Below, piece by piece: positions 21,127 to 35,487 of a stretch of 64,000 nucleotides of DNA. Under the pieces are notes generated by a model. That model did no database searches. It had not been told where the DNA came from and was given only the letters and a program-made list of their open reading frames with translations. The DNA is from Pseudomonas paralcaligenes. GTDB taxonomy: Bacteria; Pseudomonadota; Gammaproteobacteria; Pseudomonadales; Pseudomonadaceae. The stretch lies in NCBI RefSeq assembly GCF_019655855.1, contig NZ_BPFX01000034.1:13580-77579 (forward strand), given 5' to 3'. Position 1 is the stretch's first letter. Each line of letters opens with the position of its first letter. The translations under genes were made by a program, and so were the position numbers.

Positions 21127-21567
21127 ATGCTGTACCTGCTGCTGAAATTCACCCACCTGGCGGCGGCCGCCTGCTTCATCGGCGGCGTGTTCTTCGAGGT
21201 GATGATCCTCAGCCGCGCCGCCCGCACCCTGGAGCCCGCGCCGCGCGAGCAACTGTCCAAGGCCCTGGGCCAGCGCGCCCGCCAGGTCATGCACTGGGTG
21301 GTGCTGGCGCTGTACGGCGCCGGCCTGGGGCTGGCCTGGCACTACCGGAGCGCGCTGGCGCAGCCCTTCGCCAGCAGCTTCGGCACCCTGCTGACCCTGA
21401 AGATCTGCCTGGCCCTGAGCATCCTCGGCCACTTTCTCGGCGTGGTCTTCCTGATGCGCACCGGACGCATGACCCCGGCCCGCTCGCGATTGATCCACCT
21501 CAGCGTGCTGGTGCAGATGCTCGGCATCCTGTTCCTGGCCAAGGCGATGTTCGTGCTGAGCTGGTAG
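21127..21567 (+). CDS. CopD-like four-TM membrane protein, paralogue A
   Basis: 146 aa, predicted four transmembrane helices (about 3-27, 55-72, 85-108, 122-143). Clearly paralogous to the gene at 24782: both share FIGxVFFEVxIL, ASSFGTLLTLK / TSFGTLLTLK, LGHF, RIHLSV-type, LLAKxMFxLSW. Histidines H10, H102 and H124 and Glu24 are conserved in both copies and lie in or near membrane segments, so heme or copper binding is plausible but not shown. RBS GAGGAGAG precedes the ATG. Its 3' end converges on the FNR-type regulator gene. Confidence 0.75.
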   Translation: MLYLLLKFTHLAAAACFIGGVFFEVMILSRAARTLEPAPREQLSKALGQRARQVMHWVVLALYGAGLGLAWHYRSALAQPFASSFGTLLTLKICLALSILGHFLGVVFLMRTGRMTPARSRLIHLSVLVQMLGILFLAKAMFVLSW

Positions 21568-21571
21568 CCGC

Positions 21572-22285
21572 TCAGAAGGTGCGGGTGGCGGCGCTCGCCA
21601 GCTGCTGCAGGTAGGGCAGGTCGCACACCACCCACTGGCGCAGGCGGCCGCGCACCCGGCCGGCCTGCTGCCAGTCGGACAGCAGGCGGCTGAGCGATTC
21701 CGGGCGGATGCCCAGGTGGGTGGCGAGCTGGCGCTGGCTGATCGGCAGGCTGAGGTTGTCGCCCTGGCGCCGGTGCAGGCCGAGCAGGTAGGCGGCCAGG
21801 CGCTGGGATGCCGAGCTGGCGGTCAGCCAGTCCACTTCGTTGACTTGGCGATAGAGGCGCAGGCTGAGGCTTTCCAGCATGCGCATGGCCAGCGGCGGGT
21901 GGCTCTCGCAGGCCTTGCGCAGCGCCGCCCGGCCCAGGCGGTAGAAGGCGCTGTCGCACTGGGCACGGGCATTCATCGGGTAGCGGCCGTGGGGCATGAA
22001 CATGGCCGCCTCGGCGATCAGCTGGCCGTCGCGGAACAGGTGGAAGACCCGCTCCTCGCCCTCGCTGGTGAATCGCATCATCTCCACGCAGCCCTGGCGC
22101 ACCAGCAGGAAGTGCTCGGCCGCCTCGCCCTCGCGGAACAGCAGTTCGCCGGCTTCGGCCCGCAGGCAGGTGGCCGAGGCGGTGAGGGCCGCCATCAGCT
22201 CGGCGGGCAGGTCGGCGAACAGGGGAACTGACGACAGCAGCTGGCGGCATTCGCCGCAATCTGCCCGGGACTTAACATTTGTCAT
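21572..22285 (-). CDS. CRP/FNR-family transcription regulator (Dnr-like)
   Basis: 237 aa: an N-terminal cyclic-nucleotide-type beta-roll (about 20-130; FREGEAAEHFLLVRQGCVEMM), a dimerisation helix, and a C-terminal HTH_Crp domain (about 155-225; SQRQLATHLGIRPESLSRLL). The recognition helix (RPESLSRLL) resembles that of FNR/DNR proteins, so TTGAT-N4-ATCAA-like sites are expected. The N-terminus has CGEC only, not the four-Cys FNR iron-sulfur set, so direct O2 sensing is unlikely; Dnr-type heme/NO sensing is possible. ATG 22285 is 34 bp from the divergent lipoprotein gene, making it the likely local regulator of the ABC/TonB cluster. Confidence 0.85.
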   Translation of the reverse strand: MTNVKSRADCGECRQLLSSVPLFADLPAELMAALTASATCLRAEAGELLFREGEAAEHFLLVRQGCVEMMRFTSEGEERVFHLFRDGQLIAEAAMFMPHGRYPMNARAQCDSAFYRLGRAALRKACESHPPLAMRMLESLSLRLYRQVNEVDWLTASSASQRLAAYLLGLHRRQGDNLSLPISQRQLATHLGIRPESLSRLLSDWQQAGRVRGRLRQWVVCDLPYLQQLASAATRTF

Positions 22286-22314
22286 TGGTAGCTGGCGTGC
22301 CGGCGGTGATGATG

Positions 22315-22341
22315 CGCGAATGAAGATAAGACTTATTCGCG
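22315..22341. promoter_or_regulatory. Inverted repeat over the start of the binding-protein gene
   Basis: CGCGAAT (22315-22321) and ATTCGCG (22335-22341) are perfect inverted arms spanning the ATG at 22320. It could be an operator or a hairpin that masks translation initiation. No matching regulator family is recognised. Confidence 0.35.
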
Positions 22342-23333
22342 AATCATTCAATCGACGTGCCGCCCGGCTGCTCGTCTCCCTGTGGCTGGCCGGCTGCGCC
22401 GCCTCGCTCGCGCCTGCCGTGGCCGCTAAGGAGGAGGTCCTGCGCCTGGCCGGTCCTGCCGCGGTGGTCAGCTTCCCGCTGCTGCACATGGTCGAGAGCG
22501 GGGCGCTGGAGGAGCATGCGCAGCGGGTCGAGTTCCGCCTGTGGCAGAACCCGGACCAACTGCGCGTGCTGCTGGCCAACGACGAGATCGACTACAGTGC
22601 GGCGCCGGTCAACCTGCCGGCGCTGATGGCCGGGCGTGGCCAGCCGGTGCGCCTGCTCAACGTGTCGGTGTGGGGCATCATCTGGCTGGTCAGCCGCGAC
22701 CCGGCGGTGCAGGGCTTCGCCGACCTGAAGGGCAAGGAACTGGCGCTGCCGTTCCAGCGCGACCTGCCGGCGATCCTGGTCGACGAACTGCTGCTCAGCC
22801 ACGGCCTGCAGGCGGGACGCGACCTGACCCTGCGCCCGGTACGCGACGGCCAGGACGCCCAGGCGCTGCTGCTGGCCGGCCGCGCCGACCACGCGCTGCT
22901 GGTGGAGCCCGCCGTGTCGCTGCTGCTGTGGCGCAACCAGCAGCAGAAGGGCGCGCCGCTGTTCCGCGTGCAGAGCCTGGAAAGCGCCTGGAAGCAATCT
23001 TTCCCCGCGCAGCCCGAACTGCCCCAGGCCGGGCTGATGGCCAGCGCGCGGATGGCCGACCGGCGCGAGCTGGCCCGCGCCGTGGTCGAGGCCTATGACG
23101 AGTCCGCGCGCTGGTGCAGCGCCCGGGCCCGCGAATGCGCGGAGCTGGTCCACCGGCACCTGCCGCACCTGCCGGTCGCGGCCATCGAGCAGTCCATCCG
23201 TGTCACCCGCCTGGAAAGCCGCACCGCCAGCGAGGCCCGCGAGCCGCTGGAGGCGCTCTACCGGCTGATCGCCGAGCGCCATCCCCAGGCCATCGGCGGT
23301 GCGATGCCGGCCGCCGGCTTCTACGGGCCGTGA
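22320..23333 (+). CDS. ABC transporter substrate-binding lipoprotein (NMT1/THI5-like)
   Basis: 337 aa. The signal sequence LLVSLWLAGC ends in a lipobox-like LAGC, so a membrane-anchored lipoprotein is likely; a Sec-type cleavage after AVAA is the alternative. The fold resembles nitrate/taurine/thiamine-precursor binding proteins: a REVLRLAGPAAVVSFPLLHMVESG-type opening, then DEIDYSAAPVNLPALMA, FADLKGKELALPF and AGRADHALLVEPAVSLLL. Substrates in this superfamily are small organic molecules or oxyanions and cannot be read from sequence. Followed after two bases by the permease gene. Confidence 0.8.
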   Translation: MKIRLIRESFNRRAARLLVSLWLAGCAASLAPAVAAKEEVLRLAGPAAVVSFPLLHMVESGALEEHAQRVEFRLWQNPDQLRVLLANDEIDYSAAPVNLPALMAGRGQPVRLLNVSVWGIIWLVSRDPAVQGFADLKGKELALPFQRDLPAILVDELLLSHGLQAGRDLTLRPVRDGQDAQALLLAGRADHALLVEPAVSLLLWRNQQQKGAPLFRVQSLESAWKQSFPAQPELPQAGLMASARMADRRELARAVVEAYDESARWCSARARECAELVHRHLPHLPVAAIEQSIRVTRLESRTASEAREPLEALYRLIAERHPQAIGGAMPAAGFYGP

Positions 23334-23335
23334 CG

Positions 23336-24103
23336 ATGAACGATATCCGACCCACCTCCCGGCGCTGGGCGCTGCTCGGTGGCGCGCTGATTCTGCTCGG
23401 CTGGCAGTTGCTGGCGATGCGCCTCGGCCCGCTGCTGATGGCGACGCCGCTGCAGACGCTGGACGCCATGTGGCGGCTGCCGTTCGAGGCCGACTTCCGC
23501 CTGCACGCCGGCGCCAGCCTGCTGCGTATTGGCCTGGGCGTCGGCCTGGGCTGCCTGCTCGGTTTCTGCCTGGGCCTGCTGGCCGGGCTGGATGCGCGCC
23601 TGCGCGGCCTGCTGGAGCCGCTGCGCTGGCTGCTGATGGCCACGCCGCCTGTGGTGGTGGTCGTGCTGGCCATGCTCTGGTTCGGCCTGGGTTCGGCGAT
23701 GGTGGTGTTCATCAGCGTGCTGATGCTGGCGCCCGGCATGTACGTGAACACGGTCAAGGGCATGCTGATGGTGGACCGCGGCCTGCTGGAGATGGCCCGG
23801 GTGTACCGCTTCGGGCCGTGGCAGAAGCTGCGTCATCTCTATGTGCCCGCCCTGGCGGCGCCGCTTGGCGCGGCACTGCTGATCGCCACTTGCGGCGGCG
23901 TGCGCCTGGTGGTGATGGCCGAGGTGCTGGGCGCCGAGAGCGGCGCCGGCTTCGCCCTGGCCAACGCGCGCAGCACCTTCGACAGCGCCGGGCTGTACGC
24001 CTGGACCCTGCTGATCCTGCTGCTGGTGGCGGGTCTGGAGTTCGCCCTGTTGCAGCCGCTGCAACGGCGCATGGGGCGCTGGCAGGAGCCCGCCCATGCT
24101 TGA
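23336..24103 (+). CDS. ABC transporter permease (NitT/TauT type)
   Basis: 255 aa, about six TM helices in the BPD_transp_1 fold. The cytoplasmic EAA loop is LEMARVYRFGPWQKLRHLYVP. An extended hydrophobic run at residues 90-125 (LLMATPPVVVVVLAMLWFG) is typical of SsuC/TauC permeases. It starts two bases after the lipoprotein gene and its last codons overlap the ATPase start by 8 bases. Confidence 0.87.
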   Translation: MNDIRPTSRRWALLGGALILLGWQLLAMRLGPLLMATPLQTLDAMWRLPFEADFRLHAGASLLRIGLGVGLGCLLGFCLGLLAGLDARLRGLLEPLRWLLMATPPVVVVVLAMLWFGLGSAMVVFISVLMLAPGMYVNTVKGMLMVDRGLLEMARVYRFGPWQKLRHLYVPALAAPLGAALLIATCGGVRLVVMAEVLGAESGAGFALANARSTFDSAGLYAWTLLILLLVAGLEFALLQPLQRRMGRWQEPAHA

Positions 24104-24785
24104 CTGGCACGCCATCGACCTGCACCTGGGCGGCCGCCAGGTGCTGAACGGCGTCGACTTCCGGGTGCGGGCCGGCGAGCGGGTCGGCATTCTCGGCCCG
24201 AGCGGCGCCGGCAAGAGCAGCCTGCTGCGGCTGGCCGCCGGCACCCTCAAGGCCCGGCACGGCACACTGGGCAACAGCTTCCGCCACGCCGTGCTGGCCT
24301 TCCAGGAACCGCGCCTGCTGCCCTGGTGCCGGGTTGCCGAGAACCTGGAGATCCCCCTGCGCGCGGTCGGCCGCGATCCGGCGACGGCGCGGCGCCTGGC
24401 CGCCGAGTGGCTGGCGCGCGTCGGCCTCGGCGAGCAGGCCCGGGCCTGGCCCAACCAGCTCTCGGGCGGCATGGCGCAGCGCGTGGCGCTGGCCCGGGCG
24501 TTGGCCGTCGAGCCGGACCTGCTGCTGCTCGACGAACCCTTCAGCGCGCTGGACCCCGCCCTGCGCAAGACCCTCGGCGAACTCTGCCGCGACTGGCTCG
24601 ATGCCTCCGGCGCGGCCCTGCTGTGCGTCAGCCATCATCCCGCCGAACTGGTGGGTCTGGTCGACCGCTTCGTGCTGCTCAGCGGCGGCGCGCTGCGCGA
24701 GTTCGACCCCGCCGGACGCACGCCGGACAAGGTGGCCAGCGCGCTCCACCAGACCCTGATGACCCCGGAGGCACCGCAGCCATGA
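24096..24785 (+). CDS. ABC transporter ATP-binding protein (NitT/TauT type)
   Basis: 229 aa with one ATPase domain: Walker A GPSGAGKSS (about 34-42), Q-loop FQEPRLLPWCRVAENL, signature LSGGMAQRVALARAL, Walker B LLLLDEPFSALD and H-loop SHHPAEL. The QEPRLLPW and SGGMAQR versions are characteristic of nitrate/sulfonate/taurine ATPases. It overlaps the permease by 8 bases upstream and the CopD-like paralogue by ATGA downstream, so all four genes form one translation-coupled unit. Confidence 0.9.
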   Translation: MLDWHAIDLHLGGRQVLNGVDFRVRAGERVGILGPSGAGKSSLLRLAAGTLKARHGTLGNSFRHAVLAFQEPRLLPWCRVAENLEIPLRAVGRDPATARRLAAEWLARVGLGEQARAWPNQLSGGMAQRVALARALAVEPDLLLLDEPFSALDPALRKTLGELCRDWLDASGAALLCVSHHPAELVGLVDRFVLLSGGALREFDPAGRTPDKVASALHQTLMTPEAPQP

Positions 24786-25225
24786 GCTATCCCATCCTGC
24801 TGACCCTGCACCTGTTCGCCGCGCTGATCTTCATCGGCACGGTGTTCTTCGAGGTGCTGATCCTCGAAGGCGTGCGCAAGCACGTGCCGCCCGCGGTGAT
24901 GCGCGAGGTGGAGCAGGGCATCGGCAAGCGTGCGCGGCGCCTGATGCCCTGGGTGCTGCTGGTGCTGTTCAGCGCCGGCCTGGGCATGGTCTGGGTGCGC
25001 TACCTGCCTCTGCTGGCCGACCCGCTGGCGACCTCCTTCGGCACTTTGCTGACGCTGAAGATCACCCTCGCCCTGAGCGTGCTCGGGCACTTCTTCACCG
25101 CCATGTACCTGCTGTTCAGCGGGCGCATGAATTCCACCTATTTCCGCCGCATTCACCTGAGCGTGTTCACCCACATGGTCGGCATCGTGCTGCTGGCCAA
25201 AGGCATGTTCTACCTGAGCTGGTGA
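24782..25225 (+). CDS. CopD-like four-TM membrane protein, paralogue B
   Basis: 147 aa with the same four-helix pattern as the protein at 21127. Conserved H10, E24, H103 and H125 align with H10, E24, H102 and H124 of paralogue A; this copy has an extra H131 in FTHMVG. Its start overlaps the ATPase stop (ATGA), which ties it functionally to the transporter. The TonB receptor gene starts 30 bp downstream. Bacterial CopD-like proteins are linked to copper uptake, and small four-helix relatives can bind heme; neither is established here. Confidence 0.77.
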   Translation: MSYPILLTLHLFAALIFIGTVFFEVLILEGVRKHVPPAVMREVEQGIGKRARRLMPWVLLVLFSAGLGMVWVRYLPLLADPLATSFGTLLTLKITLALSVLGHFFTAMYLLFSGRMNSTYFRRIHLSVFTHMVGIVLLAKGMFYLSW

Positions 25226-25255
25226 GCCGATTTCCTATTCTGACGGAGTTGTGTC

Positions 25256-27349
25256 ATGAGTCGATCCTTCACCCCGAAACTCCTGCCCCTGGCGATCCTG
25301 AGCGCGCTGCCCCTGGCCGTCGCGGCCGCCGACAACGTGGAGCTGGAGCCGCTGCGGATCAGCGGCCAGCGCCAGGCGCCGGCCAGCCAGTCCGTGGAGG
25401 TTGCGCGCGAACGGCTGGCCCGTGTGCCGGGCGGCACCAACCTGGCCGAGCCGCAGGCCGAGACGCGCCTGGCGACCCTGCGCGATGCGCTGGACTACCA
25501 GCCGGGCCTGGTCATCCAGGACTTCTTCGGTGGCACCGACCAGCCGCGCCTGAACATCCGCGGCTCGGGCATCCAGAGCAACCCGGTCAACCGCGGCGTG
25601 CTGTTGCTGCAGGACGGCCTGCCGCTCAACGAGGCCGACGGCTCCTTCGTCATCGGCCTGCTGGAGCCGCGCAACGCCGCCTGGATCGGTGCCCGGCGCG
25701 GCGCCAACGCCGGCAGTCCCGGCGCCACCACCCTGGGCGGCGAACTGGAGTTCGGCTCGCTGACCGGCGCCGACGAGGCCGGCCGCCTGCGCGTCGAAGG
25801 CGGCAGCTTCGGCCGCTACGCCCTGCAGGCCGCTGCCGGCCTGGCGGCGGGTGGGCACGATGCGCGGGTCAGCGTCAGCCAGGACGAGTACGACGGCTAC
25901 CGCCACCACTCCGCCTCGCACCGCACCCTAGTGCAGAGCAATTTCGGCCTGGACCTGGGCAACGGCGTGGAGAACCGCAGCTACCTGTCCTGGAGCGACC
26001 TCACCTTCGAGATCCCCAACGTCATCACCAAGGCGCGCCTGGAGGACGAGCCGCGCAGCGTGCTGGGCGACGGCAGCACCCCGCAGGACCGCATGCTCAA
26101 CATCTACCGGCGCGACCCGCACCGCGACACCCAGCAACTGCGCATCTCCAACCGCACCCTGTGGAAGGGCGAGGGCTGGCAGCAGAGCTTCGGCGTCTAC
26201 GGGCAGAACACGGTGGACGACTTCACCGACCCGCTCAGCCATACCCTGACCGACAGCGACACGCTCGGCGCCCAGTGGAGCCTCGAAGGCGAGCAGCGCC
26301 TGTTCGGCTATCGCCTCGGCGCCGGCTGGTCCTACAGCGACATGGCCCGCGAGCTGTACGCCAACAGCGGCGAGGACGGCCGGCGCCTGCAGCGCTTCGG
26401 CGACTTCGACCTGGAGGCGCGCAACCTGGACCTGCTGGCCGGCCTGGACTGGCGCCTGGCCGACGACTGGACCCTGGTGACCGAGGTGAAGTGGAGCGAC
26501 GTCAGCCGCGACGCGCGCTCGCGCGATGGTGGCGCCAGCCTGGACCAGGGCTGGAACTACGCCACGCCGAAGATCGGCCTGAACTGGACGCCCGCCGACA
26601 ACCAGCGCTGGTACGCCAACGTCAGCCGCAGCCACGAGGCGCCGACCTTCTGGGAGATCGTCACCGGCCAGGTTCCGCCGATCGCCCCGGCGCTGGCCAC
26701 GGCGCAGCTGGTCGAGCTCGACGTGCAGCGCGCCACCACCTACGAGGTCGGCGGCCAGGGCCGGGTCGGCGCGAACGAGTGGAGCCTGTCCCTGTACCAC
26801 AGCGACGTGGAGGACGAGCTGATCTCCACCAGCGACAGCCTGGGCGTCAAGGTCGGCACCTACAACTACGCCTCGCGCACCCGCCATCGCGGCGTGGAGG
26901 CCGGGCTCAAGGGCCTGCTGCCGACCTCCGCCAGCCTCGGCGGCGACCTGGCCTACCGCCTGGCCTGGACCTTCAGCGACTTCCGCTTCCGCGGCGGCGA
27001 GTTCGCCGGCAACCGGATCGCCGGCGTGCCGCGCCAGCTGCTGGCGGCCGAGCTGCTCTACCGGCGCGGCCCGTGGAGCGTCGGCCCCAACCTGCGCTGG
27101 CTGCCCCAGGACACCCCGACCGACCATGCCAACACCCGCGGCAACTACCAGGACAGTTACGCGCTGTGGGGCCTGAAGGCGAGCTACAAGGCGAGCGAGG
27201 GACTGTCGCTGTACCTGCAGGGCGACAACCTGACCGACGAGGTCTACGCCAGCAGCTATGTGATCCGCAATCGCGCCGACGCCAGCCAGCCCACCTTCCT
27301 CAGTGGCAACGGCCGCAGCCTGAGCGTGGGGATGGATTACCGCTTCTAG
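25256..27349 (+). CDS. TonB-dependent outer-membrane receptor
   Basis: 697 aa with a signal peptide ending AVAAA near residue 23. A plug domain (about 45-155) contains LRDALDYQPGLVIQDFFGG, LNIRGSGIQ and a conserved GVLLLQDGLPLNEADG stretch. A 22-strand barrel follows, with a terminal aromatic Phe (VGMDYRF) as expected for BAM recognition. The resemblance is to FecA/CirA-type receptors; no Met/His-rich metal motif typical of OprC/NosA is seen. RBS GGAG precedes the ATG. Position at the end of the ABC/CopD unit suggests it brings the same substrate across the outer membrane. Confidence 0.88.
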   Translation: MSRSFTPKLLPLAILSALPLAVAAADNVELEPLRISGQRQAPASQSVEVARERLARVPGGTNLAEPQAETRLATLRDALDYQPGLVIQDFFGGTDQPRLNIRGSGIQSNPVNRGVLLLQDGLPLNEADGSFVIGLLEPRNAAWIGARRGANAGSPGATTLGGELEFGSLTGADEAGRLRVEGGSFGRYALQAAAGLAAGGHDARVSVSQDEYDGYRHHSASHRTLVQSNFGLDLGNGVENRSYLSWSDLTFEIPNVITKARLEDEPRSVLGDGSTPQDRMLNIYRRDPHRDTQQLRISNRTLWKGEGWQQSFGVYGQNTVDDFTDPLSHTLTDSDTLGAQWSLEGEQRLFGYRLGAGWSYSDMARELYANSGEDGRRLQRFGDFDLEARNLDLLAGLDWRLADDWTLVTEVKWSDVSRDARSRDGGASLDQGWNYATPKIGLNWTPADNQRWYANVSRSHEAPTFWEIVTGQVPPIAPALATAQLVELDVQRATTYEVGGQGRVGANEWSLSLYHSDVEDELISTSDSLGVKVGTYNYASRTRHRGVEAGLKGLLPTSASLGGDLAYRLAWTFSDFRFRGGEFAGNRIAGVPRQLLAAELLYRRGPWSVGPNLRWLPQDTPTDHANTRGNYQDSYALWGLKASYKASEGLSLYLQGDNLTDEVYASSYVIRNRADASQPTFLSGNGRSLSVGMDYRF

Positions 27350-27522: not shown

Positions 27523-27930
27523 ATGCTTTCCAGGGTTCTGGTCACACTCGGGGTCGCGATATTCGCCATCGTCGTTCCGGCGCTGGAAATCAACGCGTCC
27601 CACGTCTTCAACCCCGAATGGCCGCCCCATGCGCGGCTGCACGAGGTCTGGCAACTGACCACCAACTGCGCCATCGGCGCGCTGTGCCTATGGCTGGCCT
27701 GGATCAGGGGCAACGTCCGGCTCGCCGGTGTCCTGACGATTATCGTCATGAGCGGCGCCCTGTTCGCCCACGCCATCGAGGACTCGTACGGTGGCTCCCT
27801 TGCCTCCGGCAATATCGGCAGGACCTTGCTCGGCCTCGAACCCGCCGCCATCGCCGCCGGTTTTGCCGTCGTCGTGGCCGCGTTGGCCATATGGCTCGAT
27901 GGGCCGCGCAAGCCGTCTGCCAGGGCCTAG
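27523..27930 (+). CDS. Conserved four-TM membrane protein
   Basis: 135 aa, four predicted membrane helices (about 3-22, 45-62, 68-85, 105-127). A polar loop HVFNPEWPPHARLHEVWQ after TM1 is rich in His and aromatics and looks like a family signature; I associate it loosely with DUF6640 but am not certain. RBS GGGAGGGAG precedes the ATG. No functional link to its neighbours is evident. The 170 bp before it hold a GC-rich hairpin (GCGCGCC / GGCGCGC, 27453-27479) that may end the TonB transcript. Confidence 0.65.
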   Translation: MLSRVLVTLGVAIFAIVVPALEINASHVFNPEWPPHARLHEVWQLTTNCAIGALCLWLAWIRGNVRLAGVLTIIVMSGALFAHAIEDSYGGSLASGNIGRTLLGLEPAAIAAGFAVVVAALAIWLDGPRKPSARA

Positions 27931-28033: not shown

Positions 28034-28378
28034 ATGAAGATCGACTGGACGCCGTTGCAGGAGCATGAAGACGAAAATCTCTGGCGAGGCAGCGTCTTCC
28101 GCTTCCCGGCAAGGCATCCTTTAGAGGATGTCGTCGATTTCATGCTGGTCGCGGATGCCTGTTCGGACAGTGGTTTCTCGCTGATCTGCACCACGGGGTA
28201 CAAGGCCGGCCACCGGGAGTGCCTGCTGCCTCGCGAGGCGTTGGCGGCGGGGCAGGTCCAGGCGATCAGCAGGCGTTGGCTGCTGGCCAACTGGCAGCTG
28301 TGGGTCTATCCGGAGACCGATGCTTCGAAGGTTCTGGTGTGTTCGGGCTATCCGCCGGGAGTTGGTGGTCTTGCATGA
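28034..28378 (+). CDS. Orphan immunity-type protein (Imm45-like)
   Basis: 114 aa, no signal peptide. The pattern LWRGSVFRFPARHPLEDVVDFML, then TGYKAGH, then RWLLANWQLWVYP resembles the Imm45 family of immunity proteins from polymorphic toxin systems, as I recall that family. The ribosome site is weak. GC content is slightly lower than in flanking genes. No toxin gene is adjacent; the next gene is another immunity-like protein, which suggests a remnant or an orphan immunity locus. Confidence 0.6.
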   Translation: MKIDWTPLQEHEDENLWRGSVFRFPARHPLEDVVDFMLVADACSDSGFSLICTTGYKAGHRECLLPREALAAGQVQAISRRWLLANWQLWVYPETDASKVLVCSGYPPGVGGLA

Positions 28379-28625: not shown

Positions 28626-29015
28626 ATGATCGACGACGGCACCCGGGGAAAGATTTCCGTCTGGGTCGGCACCACCAGCAAGAGCCTCGATGAGTTCAAC
28701 GCGTACTTCGAGGGGCTCGAGGACCCGGATTCGAACTGCGGTATCCACCGCGACTTCGGCTGCACCTTCATCGACACGGACAGGTTCGGCACCTACGGCA
28801 CGGCCGATAACGTGGTGGTGCCGATCGAGGAGCTGTGCAAGGAGGTCGGCTGCCGGAGCCTGGAGACGGAGCAGGCCATCGTCGCGAAGTGCCGTTCGAT
28901 GGGCATCGTCAGCGGCAACTCCCTGAGCTACTACGGCAACGCGACCTTCATCGAGCCCGAGCCGGGCAGGACCTACAACGACATGCGCTTCGTCGGCACG
29001 TTCGACGACCCGTGA
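28626..29015 (+). CDS. Orphan immunity-type protein (Imm22-like)
   Basis: 129 aa, cytosolic. KISVWVGTTSKSLDEFNAYF near the N-terminus and FGCTFIDTDRFGTYG resemble Imm22 (DUF4284) proteins, which typically open with a WVG followed by an acidic helix. It then has a Cys-containing helix (IEELCKEVGCRSLE). No ribosome site stronger than AGG is seen before the ATG. Together with the gene at 28034 it forms a pair of small immunity-like genes without a visible cognate toxin. It could also be a standalone DUF4284 protein. Confidence 0.6.
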   Translation: MIDDGTRGKISVWVGTTSKSLDEFNAYFEGLEDPDSNCGIHRDFGCTFIDTDRFGTYGTADNVVVPIEELCKEVGCRSLETEQAIVAKCRSMGIVSGNSLSYYGNATFIEPEPGRTYNDMRFVGTFDDP

Positions 29016-30864: not shown

Positions 30865-33144
30865 TCAGCCGACCGTCGTGGCACCTCCTTCCGCGCCCCG
30901 CGGCACGGTGCTGGCAGTGGGGGAGAAGAAGCCGCTGATCACCTGCCAGGCCATGGCCAGGGCGCCGACGATGAACACCACGTCGCCGAAGGTGCGCACC
31001 CAGCGCAGGGTCTGCAGCAGGTCCTGCTGCATGAAGGTCTCGCTGCGGGCGTACCACAGGCCCTGGCTGACGCTGGCGTGGAACTGGATGATGCCGATGG
31101 GCAGCAGGCTGGTGGCGATCATCAGCACCAGGCCGCCGTTCAGCCACCAGAAGGCCACCTTCATCAGGCGCTCGCTGAACACCAGCTGCGGGCGGATGTA
31201 GCGCAGCACCAGCAGGGTGAAGCCCAGGGCGAGGAAGCCGTACACCCCGAACAGCGCGGCGTGGGCATGCACCGGCGTGGTGTTGAGGCCCTGGATGTAG
31301 TACAGCGAGATCGGCGGGTTGATCATGAAGCCGAACACACCGGCGCCTAGCATGTTCCAGAAGGCCACGGCGACGAAGCACATCAGCGGCCACTTGACCC
31401 GTTCCATCCAGGGCGCGCGGCCCTTGAGGCGCCAGTTCTCCCAGGCCTCGTAGCCGAGCACCACCAGCGGCACCACTTCCAGGGCGCTGAAGGTGGCGCC
31501 CACCGCCATCACCGGCGTGGTGGTGCCGGCGAAGTACAGGTGGTGGAAGGTGCCGGGCACGCCGCCGAGCATGAACAGCGAGGCCGACGCCAGGCTGGCG
31601 GTGGTGGCGGCGCGGCGCGACACCAGGCCCATGCTGGAGAAGACGAAGGCCAGCGCGGTGGTGGCGAAGACCTCGAAGAAGCCTTCCACCCACAGGTGCA
31701 CCACCCACCAGCGCCAGTACTCCATCACCGACAGGTGGGTGCGCTCGCCGTAGGCCAGGCCGGCGCCGTAGAACAGGCCGATGGCGATCACCGAGGCGGA
31801 GAGCAGGGCCAGCAGGTTCTTGTCGCCCGGTTTGGCGAACGCCGGCAGGATGCCGCGCAGCATCAGCACCAGCCAGAACACGATGCCGAGGAACTTGCCG
31901 ATCTGCCACAGGCGGCCGAGGTCGACGTATTCGTAGCCCTGGTGGCCGAGCCAGAAGTTCCACTCGGCCGGCATGATCTGGGCGATGGCCAGGTAGTTGC
32001 CGACGAAGGAGCCGAGCACCACGACCACCAGCGCCCAGAACAGCACGTCGACGCCGAGCTTCTGGTATTTCGGGTCCTTGCCGCCGTTGATCAATGGTGC
32101 CAGGAACAGGCCGGCGGCAAGGAATCCGGTGGCGATCCAGAACAGCGCGCTCTGGATGTGCCAGGTGCGCAGCAGCGAGTAGGGGAACCACTGCGACAGC
32201 GGGAAGCCGTAGAAGTCCTGGCCCTCCACCGTGTAGTGGGCGGTGGCGCCGCCGAGCATGACCTGGAAGCCGAACAGCCCGACCACCAGCAGCAGGTACT
32301 TGCCCAGCGCCTTCTGCGACGGGGTGAGGCCGGCCAGGGTCAGCGGGTCCTGCGGCGGCACGACCGGCTCTTCCTCCTCATGGTCGCGCAGGAAGGCCCA
32401 GGCCCAGACCAGGAAGCCCACCCCGGCGATCAGCAGGATCACGCTGGCGATCGACCACATCAGGTTCTCGGCGGTCGGCACGTTGCCTATCAGTGGCTCG
32501 TGGGGCCAGTTGTTGGTGTAGGTCGCCGTGGATTCCGGGCGCTCGGTGGCGGCCGCCCAGGCGGTCCAGAAGAAGAAACGGCTCATCTGCTCGCGCCGGG
32601 CGGCGTCGGGCAGGGTGTTCTCCTTCATGGCGAAGCTCTTGCGGCTCGGTTGCAGCGCCGGGTCGTCGCTGAACAGCGCGTTGTAGTAGTCGGCGGTCTG
32701 GCGCACGGCGGCCGCGCGGCGCTCGCTCAGGACCAGCACGCCGCCTGCCACGTCGTTGTCGCGGTATTCGCGCTTCAGGCGCTGGCGCAGCAGGGCCTGG
32801 AGATCGTCGTCGAGCTCGGCGAAGGGCTTGGCGTAGGCGTCCTGCGCGGCCAGGTCGAGCCAGGCGGTCAGTTCGCGGTGCAGCCAGTCGGCCGTCCAGT
32901 CCGGCGCCTGGTAGGCGCCGTGGCCCCAGATGGAGCCGAGCTGCATGCCGCCGACGCTCTGCCAGGCGGTCTGGCCGTCGAGGATGTCGTCGGCGCCGAA
33001 CAGCGCCGCGCTGTCCGCGCTCAGCACCTGCTCGGGAATCGGTGGCGCCTGGCGGTAGACCTCGCGGCCGAACCAGCCGAGCAGGCAGAAGGTGGCGCCG
33101 AGCACGGCGATCAGCGTCCACCAGAGCTTGCGGTACTCACCCAT
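30865..33144 (-). CDS. norZ: Quinol-dependent nitric oxide reductase (qNOR)
   Basis: 759-aa single-subunit NO reductase that takes electrons from quinol and makes N2O at the inner membrane. The N-terminal extension fused to the catalytic domain, replacing NorC, is the qNOR hallmark. Twelve or more TM helices hold the heme and FeB ligands: RTWHIQ, WWVVHLWVEGFFEVFATT (FeB His plus essential Glu), TFHHLYFAG and TPVHAHAALFGVYG (paired His). The start ATG overlaps the end of ric by 8 bases. NorR is encoded divergently, so NO-responsive control is expected. Confidence 0.95.
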   Translation of the reverse strand: MGEYRKLWWTLIAVLGATFCLLGWFGREVYRQAPPIPEQVLSADSAALFGADDILDGQTAWQSVGGMQLGSIWGHGAYQAPDWTADWLHRELTAWLDLAAQDAYAKPFAELDDDLQALLRQRLKREYRDNDVAGGVLVLSERRAAAVRQTADYYNALFSDDPALQPSRKSFAMKENTLPDAARREQMSRFFFWTAWAAATERPESTATYTNNWPHEPLIGNVPTAENLMWSIASVILLIAGVGFLVWAWAFLRDHEEEEPVVPPQDPLTLAGLTPSQKALGKYLLLVVGLFGFQVMLGGATAHYTVEGQDFYGFPLSQWFPYSLLRTWHIQSALFWIATGFLAAGLFLAPLINGGKDPKYQKLGVDVLFWALVVVVLGSFVGNYLAIAQIMPAEWNFWLGHQGYEYVDLGRLWQIGKFLGIVFWLVLMLRGILPAFAKPGDKNLLALLSASVIAIGLFYGAGLAYGERTHLSVMEYWRWWVVHLWVEGFFEVFATTALAFVFSSMGLVSRRAATTASLASASLFMLGGVPGTFHHLYFAGTTTPVMAVGATFSALEVVPLVVLGYEAWENWRLKGRAPWMERVKWPLMCFVAVAFWNMLGAGVFGFMINPPISLYYIQGLNTTPVHAHAALFGVYGFLALGFTLLVLRYIRPQLVFSERLMKVAFWWLNGGLVLMIATSLLPIGIIQFHASVSQGLWYARSETFMQQDLLQTLRWVRTFGDVVFIVGALAMAWQVISGFFSPTASTVPRGAEGGATTVG

Positions 33145-33820
33145 GGCTCACCTCCATGCCCAGCGCCCGCGGGAACAGCAGGTTGTTCTCCAGGTGGATG
33201 TGCTGCATCAGGTCCACGCGCAGTTCGTTGAGGCCGCGGTACAGCGCCTGCCAGGTGTTGCAGGCGCCGGCCGGTGCGCGGATGTCGTCGGTGAGTTCGG
33301 CGAGCCGCTCCAGGGCCTCGCCGTGCTGGTCGTGCTCGAAGCGCATCACCGAGATCGGACCGCCGGCCATGGCGCCCGCGCCGCGCAGGATCATCGGGAA
33401 CAGCACCTGCTCCTCCTTCTGCATGTGGCTTTCCAGCTCCTGCTGCATCTCCATCAGCAGCTCGGTGAGGCCGTTCGGGCATTCCTCGCGGCGGCCGTGC
33501 ACCTGCTCCACCCGCGCGGCCAGGCGGATCAGCTCCGGCAGCTGCTGGCGGTGGATGGCGTGGTAGCGGGTCAGCACATGGTCGATCAGCTGCGCCGGCG
33601 CGGCCTCGCGCCAGGTTTCCCCGCCCGCGTCCTGCGGGTCGAGGGCGAGCAGGCGGGCCGCCACTTCGCCGGCGTCGATGCCGCGCTCCCGGGCCGCCTG
33701 GCGCAGGCTCTTGGCGCCGCCGCAGCAGAAGTCCAGGTGGAATTCGTGGAATACCCGGGTGGCGCCGGGCAGGTTGCAGGCCAGGTTGCCGAGCGTGTCG
33801 TCGAGCAGTTGGGCGGCCAT
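33137..33820 (-). CDS. ric: Di-iron repair-of-iron-centres protein (RIC/YtfE/DnrN type)
   Basis: 227 aa. The N-terminal ScdA_N domain (about 8-65) contains the FCCGGAKSL Cys pair; a hemerythrin-like four-helix bundle (about 80-225) contains the His/Glu ligands (YHAIH, ESHMQKEEQVLFP, FEHDQHGEALE, HIHLENNLLFPR). RIC proteins repair NO-damaged iron-sulfur clusters or release NO from iron. ATG 33820 has GGAG seven bases upstream. First gene of the ric-qNOR operon behind a sigma-54 promoter; the coupling to qNOR fits a joint NO-stress role. Confidence 0.93.
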   Translation of the reverse strand: MAAQLLDDTLGNLACNLPGATRVFHEFHLDFCCGGAKSLRQAARERGIDAGEVAARLLALDPQDAGGETWREAAPAQLIDHVLTRYHAIHRQQLPELIRLAARVEQVHGRREECPNGLTELLMEMQQELESHMQKEEQVLFPMILRGAGAMAGGPISVMRFEHDQHGEALERLAELTDDIRAPAGACNTWQALYRGLNELRVDLMQHIHLENNLLFPRALGMEVSHG

Positions 33821-33859
33821 GGAGGGTCTCCTTATCGGGCTAGGTCCGATACCTCCACC

Positions 33860-33873
33860 GCAAACGGCGTGCC
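33860..33873 (-). promoter_or_regulatory. Sigma-54 promoter of ric-qNOR
   Basis: Minus-strand GGCACGCCGTTTGC: the GG and GC dinucleotides are exactly 10 bases apart and the match to TGGCACG-N4-TTGC is near complete. It lies about 40 bp before the ric start, downstream of a bEBP gene, as expected for NorR-type activation. Confidence 0.82.
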
Positions 33874-33883
33874 GTCGTCCGGG

Positions 33884-33897
33884 TTGACGCAAATCAA
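33884..33897. promoter_or_regulatory. DNR/ANR box in the ric-norR intergenic region
   Basis: TTGAC-GCAA-ATCAA matches TTGAT-N4-ATCAA at nine of ten positions. Its centre is about 40 bases from a plausible norR start point (candidate -10 TTTAAT, 33918-33923), the class II activator distance. Confidence 0.7.
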
Positions 33898-33923
33898 GGG
33901 TTTGCGCGGCGAGCGGGTTTAAT

Positions 33924-33945
33924 TTACCTGTCACGGATCAGGTAA
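33924..33945. promoter_or_regulatory. Palindromic candidate NorR operator/enhancer
   Basis: TTACCTG and CAGGTAA, perfect 7-bp arms 8 bases apart. It lies 51-72 bases upstream of the sigma-54 -24 element and just before the norR start, so it could serve both as enhancer for ric-qNOR and for norR autoregulation. Confidence 0.55.
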
Positions 33946-33957
33946 CGGATACCCGAA

Positions 33958-35487
<1,530 letters not shown>

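Follow-up and report, generated by a model that had tools for sequence, protein, structure and literature searches.

What does an uptake operon close to nitric oxide (NO) genes carry across the two membranes of a denitrifying bacterium? The question is raised by a 64,000-nucleotide stretch of Pseudomonas paralcaligenes DNA (contig NZ_BPFX01000034.1, positions 13,580 to 77,579, hereafter the window), in which a periplasmic binding protein, an ATP-binding cassette (ABC) transporter, a small membrane protein and a TonB receptor are encoded in one run beside a DNR-like regulator. We find that these genes form a conserved module and that it is tied to nitrite reductases, both of which are well supported. 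With a probability of about one half, this two-membrane module imports an iron chelate, is activated by the DNR-type regulator and repressed by Fur, and serves iron-poor cells during denitrification or NO stress.

Gene order and conservation of the module

The binding-protein gene (22320..23333, plus strand, 337 amino acids) encodes an NMT1-type protein that passes the gathering score of the Pfam family NMT1_2 (PF13379; 25.8 vs 24.7 bits). After a 2-bp gap it is followed on the same strand by a permease gene (23336..24103; BPD_transp_1), then, with an 8-bp overlap, by an ATPase gene (24096..24785; ABC_tran) and, with a 4-bp overlap, by the gene of a predicted four-helix membrane protein of 147 amino acids (CopD-like protein B, 24782..25225). 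The TonB receptor gene (25256..27349, plus strand, 697 amino acids, with TonB barrel and Plug) begins 30 bp further on. The DNR-like Crp/Fnr-type regulator (21572..22285, minus strand, 237 amino acids; cNMP_binding 65.9 bits, HTH_Crp_2 64.2 bits) is divergent from the operon, and the gene of CopD-like protein A (21127..21567, plus strand, 146 amino acids) is convergent on it. Here "CopD-like" is a label of convenience for the two small membrane proteins. The open reading frames (ORFs) and the sequence bear out this seven-gene layout, with its gaps and overlaps, as given in the preliminary description, and the arrangement is not due to chance, since the same gene order recurs in further loci.

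Of 7997 candidates scored in a protein search, 216 were related to the binding protein at E 0.001. The window protein was aligned with 37 of these, and the alignment served to scan one genome per species, giving 80 pattern matches that resolved into 63 loci, and profiles built from these loci defined the arrangements. With the window there are 64 loci, 45 in group 1 and 19 in group 2. The order binding protein-permease-ATPase is kept across several families, mostly with an adjoining TonB receptor. The preliminary description had named scattering of these neighbors in other genomes as the observation that would speak against an uptake route; the genes stay together, so that objection falls away. 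The spread is patchy, with matches in 4 of 57 genomes among relatives (own genome included), two of the four being weak. The window binding protein had also been called a lipoprotein, and it does carry the lipobox LAGC; however, the pattern occurs in only 8 of the 63 binding proteins scanned, the window included (54 lack it and one could not be placed), and lipoprotein nature was dropped as a defining trait of the system.

Group 1, to which the window belongs, comprises Pseudomonas, Alcaligenaceae, Comamonadaceae and Xanthomonadaceae. Permease and ATPase are present in 44 of its 45 loci, the CopD-like gene lies between ATPase and receptor in 33, and the downstream receptor is found in 41; where it is missing, two loci have other genes (L014, L015) and two stop at the contig end (L020, L043). 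The divergent DNR-like gene is present in 35/45, and ilvD takes its place in 7 of the 10 loci without it. Past the DNR-like gene, 20/45 loci hold a gene for a globin-DUF1971 protein, likely an NO- or O2-binding partner; in L014 (8344-9024) the globin is fused to DUF1971 (DUF1971 61.2 bits, Bac_globin 23.6 bits). One Pseudomonas metagenome locus (L032) repeats the window layout; in it NnrS (PF05940, 367.8 bits) precedes the convergent CopD-like gene, and past the receptor lies a YtfE-type gene.

Group 2 is drawn from Rhodocyclaceae, Hydrogenophilus, Nitrosomonas and others. NnrS follows the ATPase gene in 14 of the 19 loci, with scores well clear of the PF05940 gathering score of 28 in L052 (269.5 bits) and, from the third lineage described below, in L115 (157.7 bits). 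By gene order, NnrS here stands where group 1 has the CopD-like gene, a counterpart that adds to the picture drawn in the preliminary description. A receptor of a different kind lies upstream in 13/19; several of the exceptions are cut by contig ends, L052, L059 and L061 have no receptor at that place, and L049 has a receptor of the group-1 type on the other strand.

A third lineage came from a sample of 180 genomes from the family to which L017, an Achromobacter, belongs, as four of the nine genomes with weaker scores (L114-L117). All four share the order nirK, SCO1, PCuAC, a gene without Pfam match (none for L115:9172-10422), binding protein, permease, ATPase and an NnrS-like gene, the last named by Pfam in L115 and by our own profiles in L114, L116 and L117. 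Immediately ahead of the binding-protein gene there is a Fur-like box with 1 mismatch in L115 and L117 and with 2 mismatches in L114; L116 has none that passes this threshold. L116 and L117 also have an adjoining TonB receptor like that of group 1, and in L117 a perfect Fur box accompanies it.

The small membrane protein has been harder to place. Neither copy has a Pfam match at 1e-3, and copy B stays under the CopD gathering score (PF05425; 16.5 vs 32.1 bits). With E values up to 10 allowed, CopD is listed for 16 of 34 family members, the best at 5.4e-5. Membership in the Pfam CopD family and a specific tie to copper are not supported. The two copies share 52% identity and are the sole matches in their own genome at E 0.001. 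His 10, 103 and 125 are invariant in the 34 CopD-like sequences; copy A keeps all three and has Gln where His 131 stands. The predicted model resembles cytochrome b subunits in structure comparison, no match to solved structures was found with the profile, and Foldseek returned none at E 0.001. The idea that the protein is a piece of NnrS was rejected, as hhalign (probability 0.2) detected no relation.

Beyond the operon, a CopD-like match occurs in 26 of 79 Pseudomonas genomes (own included), and 12 of 13 fetched Pseudomonas stretches hold the gene. It adjoins an NnrS gene in 5 of these 12 (L100, L104, L106, L107, L110), some also with Dnr-like regulators and NO reductase near by. At least six stretches (L098, L099, L100, L101, L105, L109) carry two HemN-like ORFs in a row beside the CopD-like gene and lack the importer there; one such ORF scored 259.2 bits, under the hemN cut-off of 324.95. 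Nothing related to NO stands next to the CopD-like gene in L102.

Promoter elements and the tie to denitrification

E-xx-SR in the recognition helix is a DNR/FNR-type motif, and FNR proper, an iron-sulfur (Fe-S) oxygen sensor, has four conserved cysteines. With cNMP-binding and Crp-type helix-turn-helix domains and ESLSR in its recognition helix, the window regulator appears by its sequence to be of the DNR/FNR type, and E[ST]xSR is found in 26 of 28 divergent regulators. FNR proper was rejected as its identity, as the four-cysteine cluster is not conserved in the aligned regulators, where only one cysteine column is common to half or more.

Two elements lie between the divergent genes. A DNR-type box, TTAACATTTGTCAT (22272..22285, plus strand), overlaps the regulator start codon and is weak (4 mismatches to TTGAT-N4-ATCAA, shuffle p 0.94); relatives have TTGATATTTGTCAT and similar boxes at this position. 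A Fur-like palindromic element, GCGAATGAAGATAAGACTTATTCGC (22316..22340), overlaps the start codon of the binding protein, with 5 mismatches to the 7-1-7 pattern (shuffle p 0.08; p 0.02 for the 19-mer). Three observations speak for a genuine operator at this place. The element is kept in near relatives, and it holds the sole AGA and one of the two ATA codons among the 1926 codons of the operon and two neighboring genes. Genes for ECF (extracytoplasmic function) sigma factors are often Fur-controlled, and one such ORF begins 38 bp past the end of the only other match of the element in the genome, a match with 2 mismatches; taken alone this match is weak, because a reversed control pattern also gave one match per strand.

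Among the relatives the boxes were compared with 519 upstream regions from the same contigs. At up to 2 mismatches, Fur-like boxes occur in 17/64 loci vs 4/519 control regions and DNR-type boxes in 40/64 vs 70/519, while a DNR-type box followed downstream by a Fur-like box is seen in 39/64 loci vs 7/519. In group 1, 30 of 31 pairs are spaced 47-50 bp apart and the remaining one 66 bp; in group 2 the spacing is 15-16 bp for five of the eight pairs and 20, 21 and 26 bp for the others. Fur-like boxes with 0-1 mismatch are found in L021, L022, L062, L115 and L117, those of L021 and L022 being perfect 7-1-7 boxes. This promoter pair of an FNR/DNR-type and a Fur-like element was not part of the preliminary description. 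Fur-type control appears well supported among the relatives, and its support in the window is weak.

The link to denitrification was followed in 51 cluster genomes, namely those of 50 of the 63 loci and the own genome, in which NirK and NosZ are present and NirS gave no match. NirK matches occur in 40/51 (39 over cut-off) and cytochrome d1 matches of NirS strength (over 480 bits, a threshold set in this analysis) in 12/51, and every one of the 51 has NirK or NirS. NosZ is present in 38/51. A NorB-like match was found in 48 of 50 cluster genomes, 38 with a full-length single-chain NO reductase, one in fragments, and the weaker matches may include other heme-copper oxidases. In the 180-genome family sample, 41 genomes encode the binding protein at E < 1e-30. 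NirK accompanies it in 39/41 vs 38/139 genomes without it, and an NO reductase of the qNOR class in 38/41 vs 39/139; NirS adds 6/139 genomes without the binding protein and 0/41 with it.

What the module may import

We infer an iron chelate as substrate from the Fur-like control together with the TonB receptor. Judging from sequence, the DNR-type regulator likely activates the operon during denitrification or NO stress and Fur likely represses it when iron is plentiful. As expected of its family, the receptor would take the chelate across the outer membrane with TonB energy; family and fold suggest that the periplasmic protein would then capture it and that the ABC transporter would move inward either the chelate or the ligand freed from it. 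The four-helix protein, or NnrS in its place, may bind heme via the conserved histidines, and this predicted heme protein could, at the inner membrane, pass an electron to the iron or keep NO off it; electron transfer is our guess from predicted fold and histidines. With both regulators acting, the operon would provide iron to NO and nitrite reductases and to Fe-S repair while NO damages the iron pool. The interpretation first proposed is on the whole partly supported; within it, one two-membrane route linked to NO in a denitrifier is supported. The module would be a possible way for denitrifiers to obtain iron while NO disturbs their iron pool, with a bearing on the release of NO and N2O (nitrous oxide). 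NnrS or the small stand-in, encoded after the ATPase in an operon with NO-type and iron-type promoter elements, would thereby gain a testable job, and the hypothesis would join NO tolerance and iron supply in one machine in NO-making bacteria.

Fur-controlled ferri-siderophore and heme uptake follow the same three-part route of TonB receptor, periplasmic protein and ABC importer, likewise with a Fur-like box upstream in the relatives studied here. Unlike these systems, the module has an NMT1-type binding protein with a NitT-like transporter, an extra NnrS or four-helix gene, an FNR/DNR-type box and co-occurrence with NirK/NirS. NnrS is described as being under NO-type control in DNR/NnrR/NsrR regulons in part of a published study (PMC1274295), which the DNR-type box here resembles; unlike in those regulons as presented there, NnrS or the CopD-like gene here comes after an ABC importer gene, and the main text of that study contains neither the term TonB nor ABC transporter. 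In the titles and abstract starts of open-licence literature we found none that combines NnrS, a TonB receptor and this ABC importer, a weak absence because only open-licence papers are covered. Likewise, no homologue characterized for a known substrate, which had been anticipated as a second objection to the route, was found among solved structures or in that literature.

Several observations weigh against iron-chelate import. Both window boxes are weak, under the thresholds used for relatives, and count against Fur and DNR control in this strain. The pair threshold is missed by 25/64 loci, and the statistics overstate independence since the loci are related. NirK (38/139) and qNOR (39/139) also occur in genomes without the system. 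The receptors of the two groups are of different kinds, the fold of the binding protein is common to sulfonate, nitrate, bicarbonate, thiamine-precursor and PQQ (pyrroloquinoline quinone) binders, and the protein is without known iron-binding residues. The helical-bundle match of the CopD-like model is within the level expected from common shape alone. Finally, in the third lineage the neighborhood of nirK, SCO1 and PCuAC suggests copper.

The chief alternatives to iron-chelate import are copper and heme import. Copper uptake would feed NirK, N2O reductase or other copper enzymes, with the CopD-like protein and NnrS handling the metal at the inner membrane. NosA/OprC are the copper receptors of denitrifiers, and to our knowledge no ABC importer belongs to their system. 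They are similar in being TonB receptors linked to denitrification; however, the window receptor reaches 23.4 bits and the group-2 receptors 112.6-129.2 bits against the TonB-copper model (TIGR01778, cut-off 472.45). NosA is mentioned in a part of PMC1274295, and NnrS is listed as a cuproprotein in a passage of PMC6769254. The position of the third lineage within a nirK-SCO1-PCuAC cluster, the sub-threshold CopD match and the presence of NirK and NosZ in 40/51 and 38/51 cluster genomes also favor copper. However, the conserved metal-type promoter element is Fur-like, and NirK is missing in 11/51 and NosZ in 13/51. Because of the latter count we rejected the version in which copper serves N2O reductase only; supply of copper to NirK remains a competing explanation, and copper uptake overall is unlikely.

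A bolder form of iron import is a dedicated iron rescue, in which the receptor and ABC importer would recapture iron that NO has removed from proteins, be it nitrosyl-iron or another small complex. NnrS, or the histidine-rich four-helix protein instead of it, would be a heme reductase of the inner membrane that strips NO or reduces the iron to make it usable. We rate this as rather improbable. It is worth a test because a passage of PMC11526790 reports, at second hand, that NnrS guards the iron pool from dinitrosyl-iron formation. If true, NnrS would be a transport partner and this protection a consequence.

Heme uptake through an unusual ABC importer, with the CopD-like protein or NnrS carrying heme, seems quite improbable. 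The Fur-like boxes would suit it, PhuR/ShuA are the best solved structures for the group-2 receptors, and three of these score 257.5, 282 and 269.4 bits against the TonB-hemin model (TIGR01785); however, all remain under the cut-off of 316.85, and the window receptor reaches 59.3 bits. The His of the FRA/NP motifs has a role in heme receptors, and the group-2 receptor consensus has no conserved His between FRA and NP. The binding proteins of usual heme importers are also of another type than NMT1.

More doubtful again is an ordinary importer of small organics or oxyanions (sulfonate, nitrate-like) with the TonB receptor and the CopD-like gene as mere neighbors. The fold family of the binding protein and its NMT1_2 and SsuA-family matches agree with this, whereas the receptor adjoins the transporter in 41/45 group-1 and 13/19 group-2 loci, the binding protein scores 27.9 bits against the aliphatic sulfonate model (TIGR01728, SsuA_fam; cut-off 163.5), and the nearest named permeases and ATPases (sulfonate, taurine, nitrate) all lie far under their NCBIfam cut-offs for the window proteins. 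Import of PQQ or a similar cofactor, to which PqqU as nearest solved receptor and PqqT as one nearest binding-protein fold (PqqU/PqqT; PMC12124388, in part) had pointed, was rejected as highly improbable, since two of the three PqqU signature residues given there (Y/F/W99, R304, R365) are missing in the window receptor (P, Q, R) and nearly all of 42 aligned relatives (P 41, Q 40, R 42), the PqqU model NF041535 gives 110.5 bits against a cut-off of 1200, SsuA and 3un6 tie with PqqT, and neither promoter element fits a cofactor.

Neighboring genes

From 671 to 20926, up to rnhA, the window resembles what we take to be familiar Pseudomonas gene order. The NO and nitrate-respiration genes start after rnhA, from 21127 onward, possibly an inserted denitrification region. 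A single-chain (qNOR-type) NO reductase is encoded at 30865..33144 (minus strand; NorB_cytochrome_c-like, COX1), next to a YtfE/ScdA-type di-iron protein ORF (33137..33934, minus strand; Hemerythrin, ScdA_N) and a sigma-54 activator (33958..35487, plus strand; GAF, Sigma54_activat) that is presumably NorR-like. Nitrate reductase and molybdopterin genes are also present in the window.

In the Alcaligenaceae loci L012, L013, L016, L021, L022, L023, L025, L038, L039, L040 and L069, ilvD lies beside the cluster or diverges from it; the gene encodes an Fe-S enzyme described as NO-sensitive. After the TonB gene of the window, an ORF of 135 amino acids (27523-27930) is apparently hydrophobic and has no Pfam or NCBIfam match. 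Just past the operon lie two immunity-type genes, Imm45 (28034-28378, 63.8 bits) and DUF4284/Imm22 (28626-29015, 34.6 bits).

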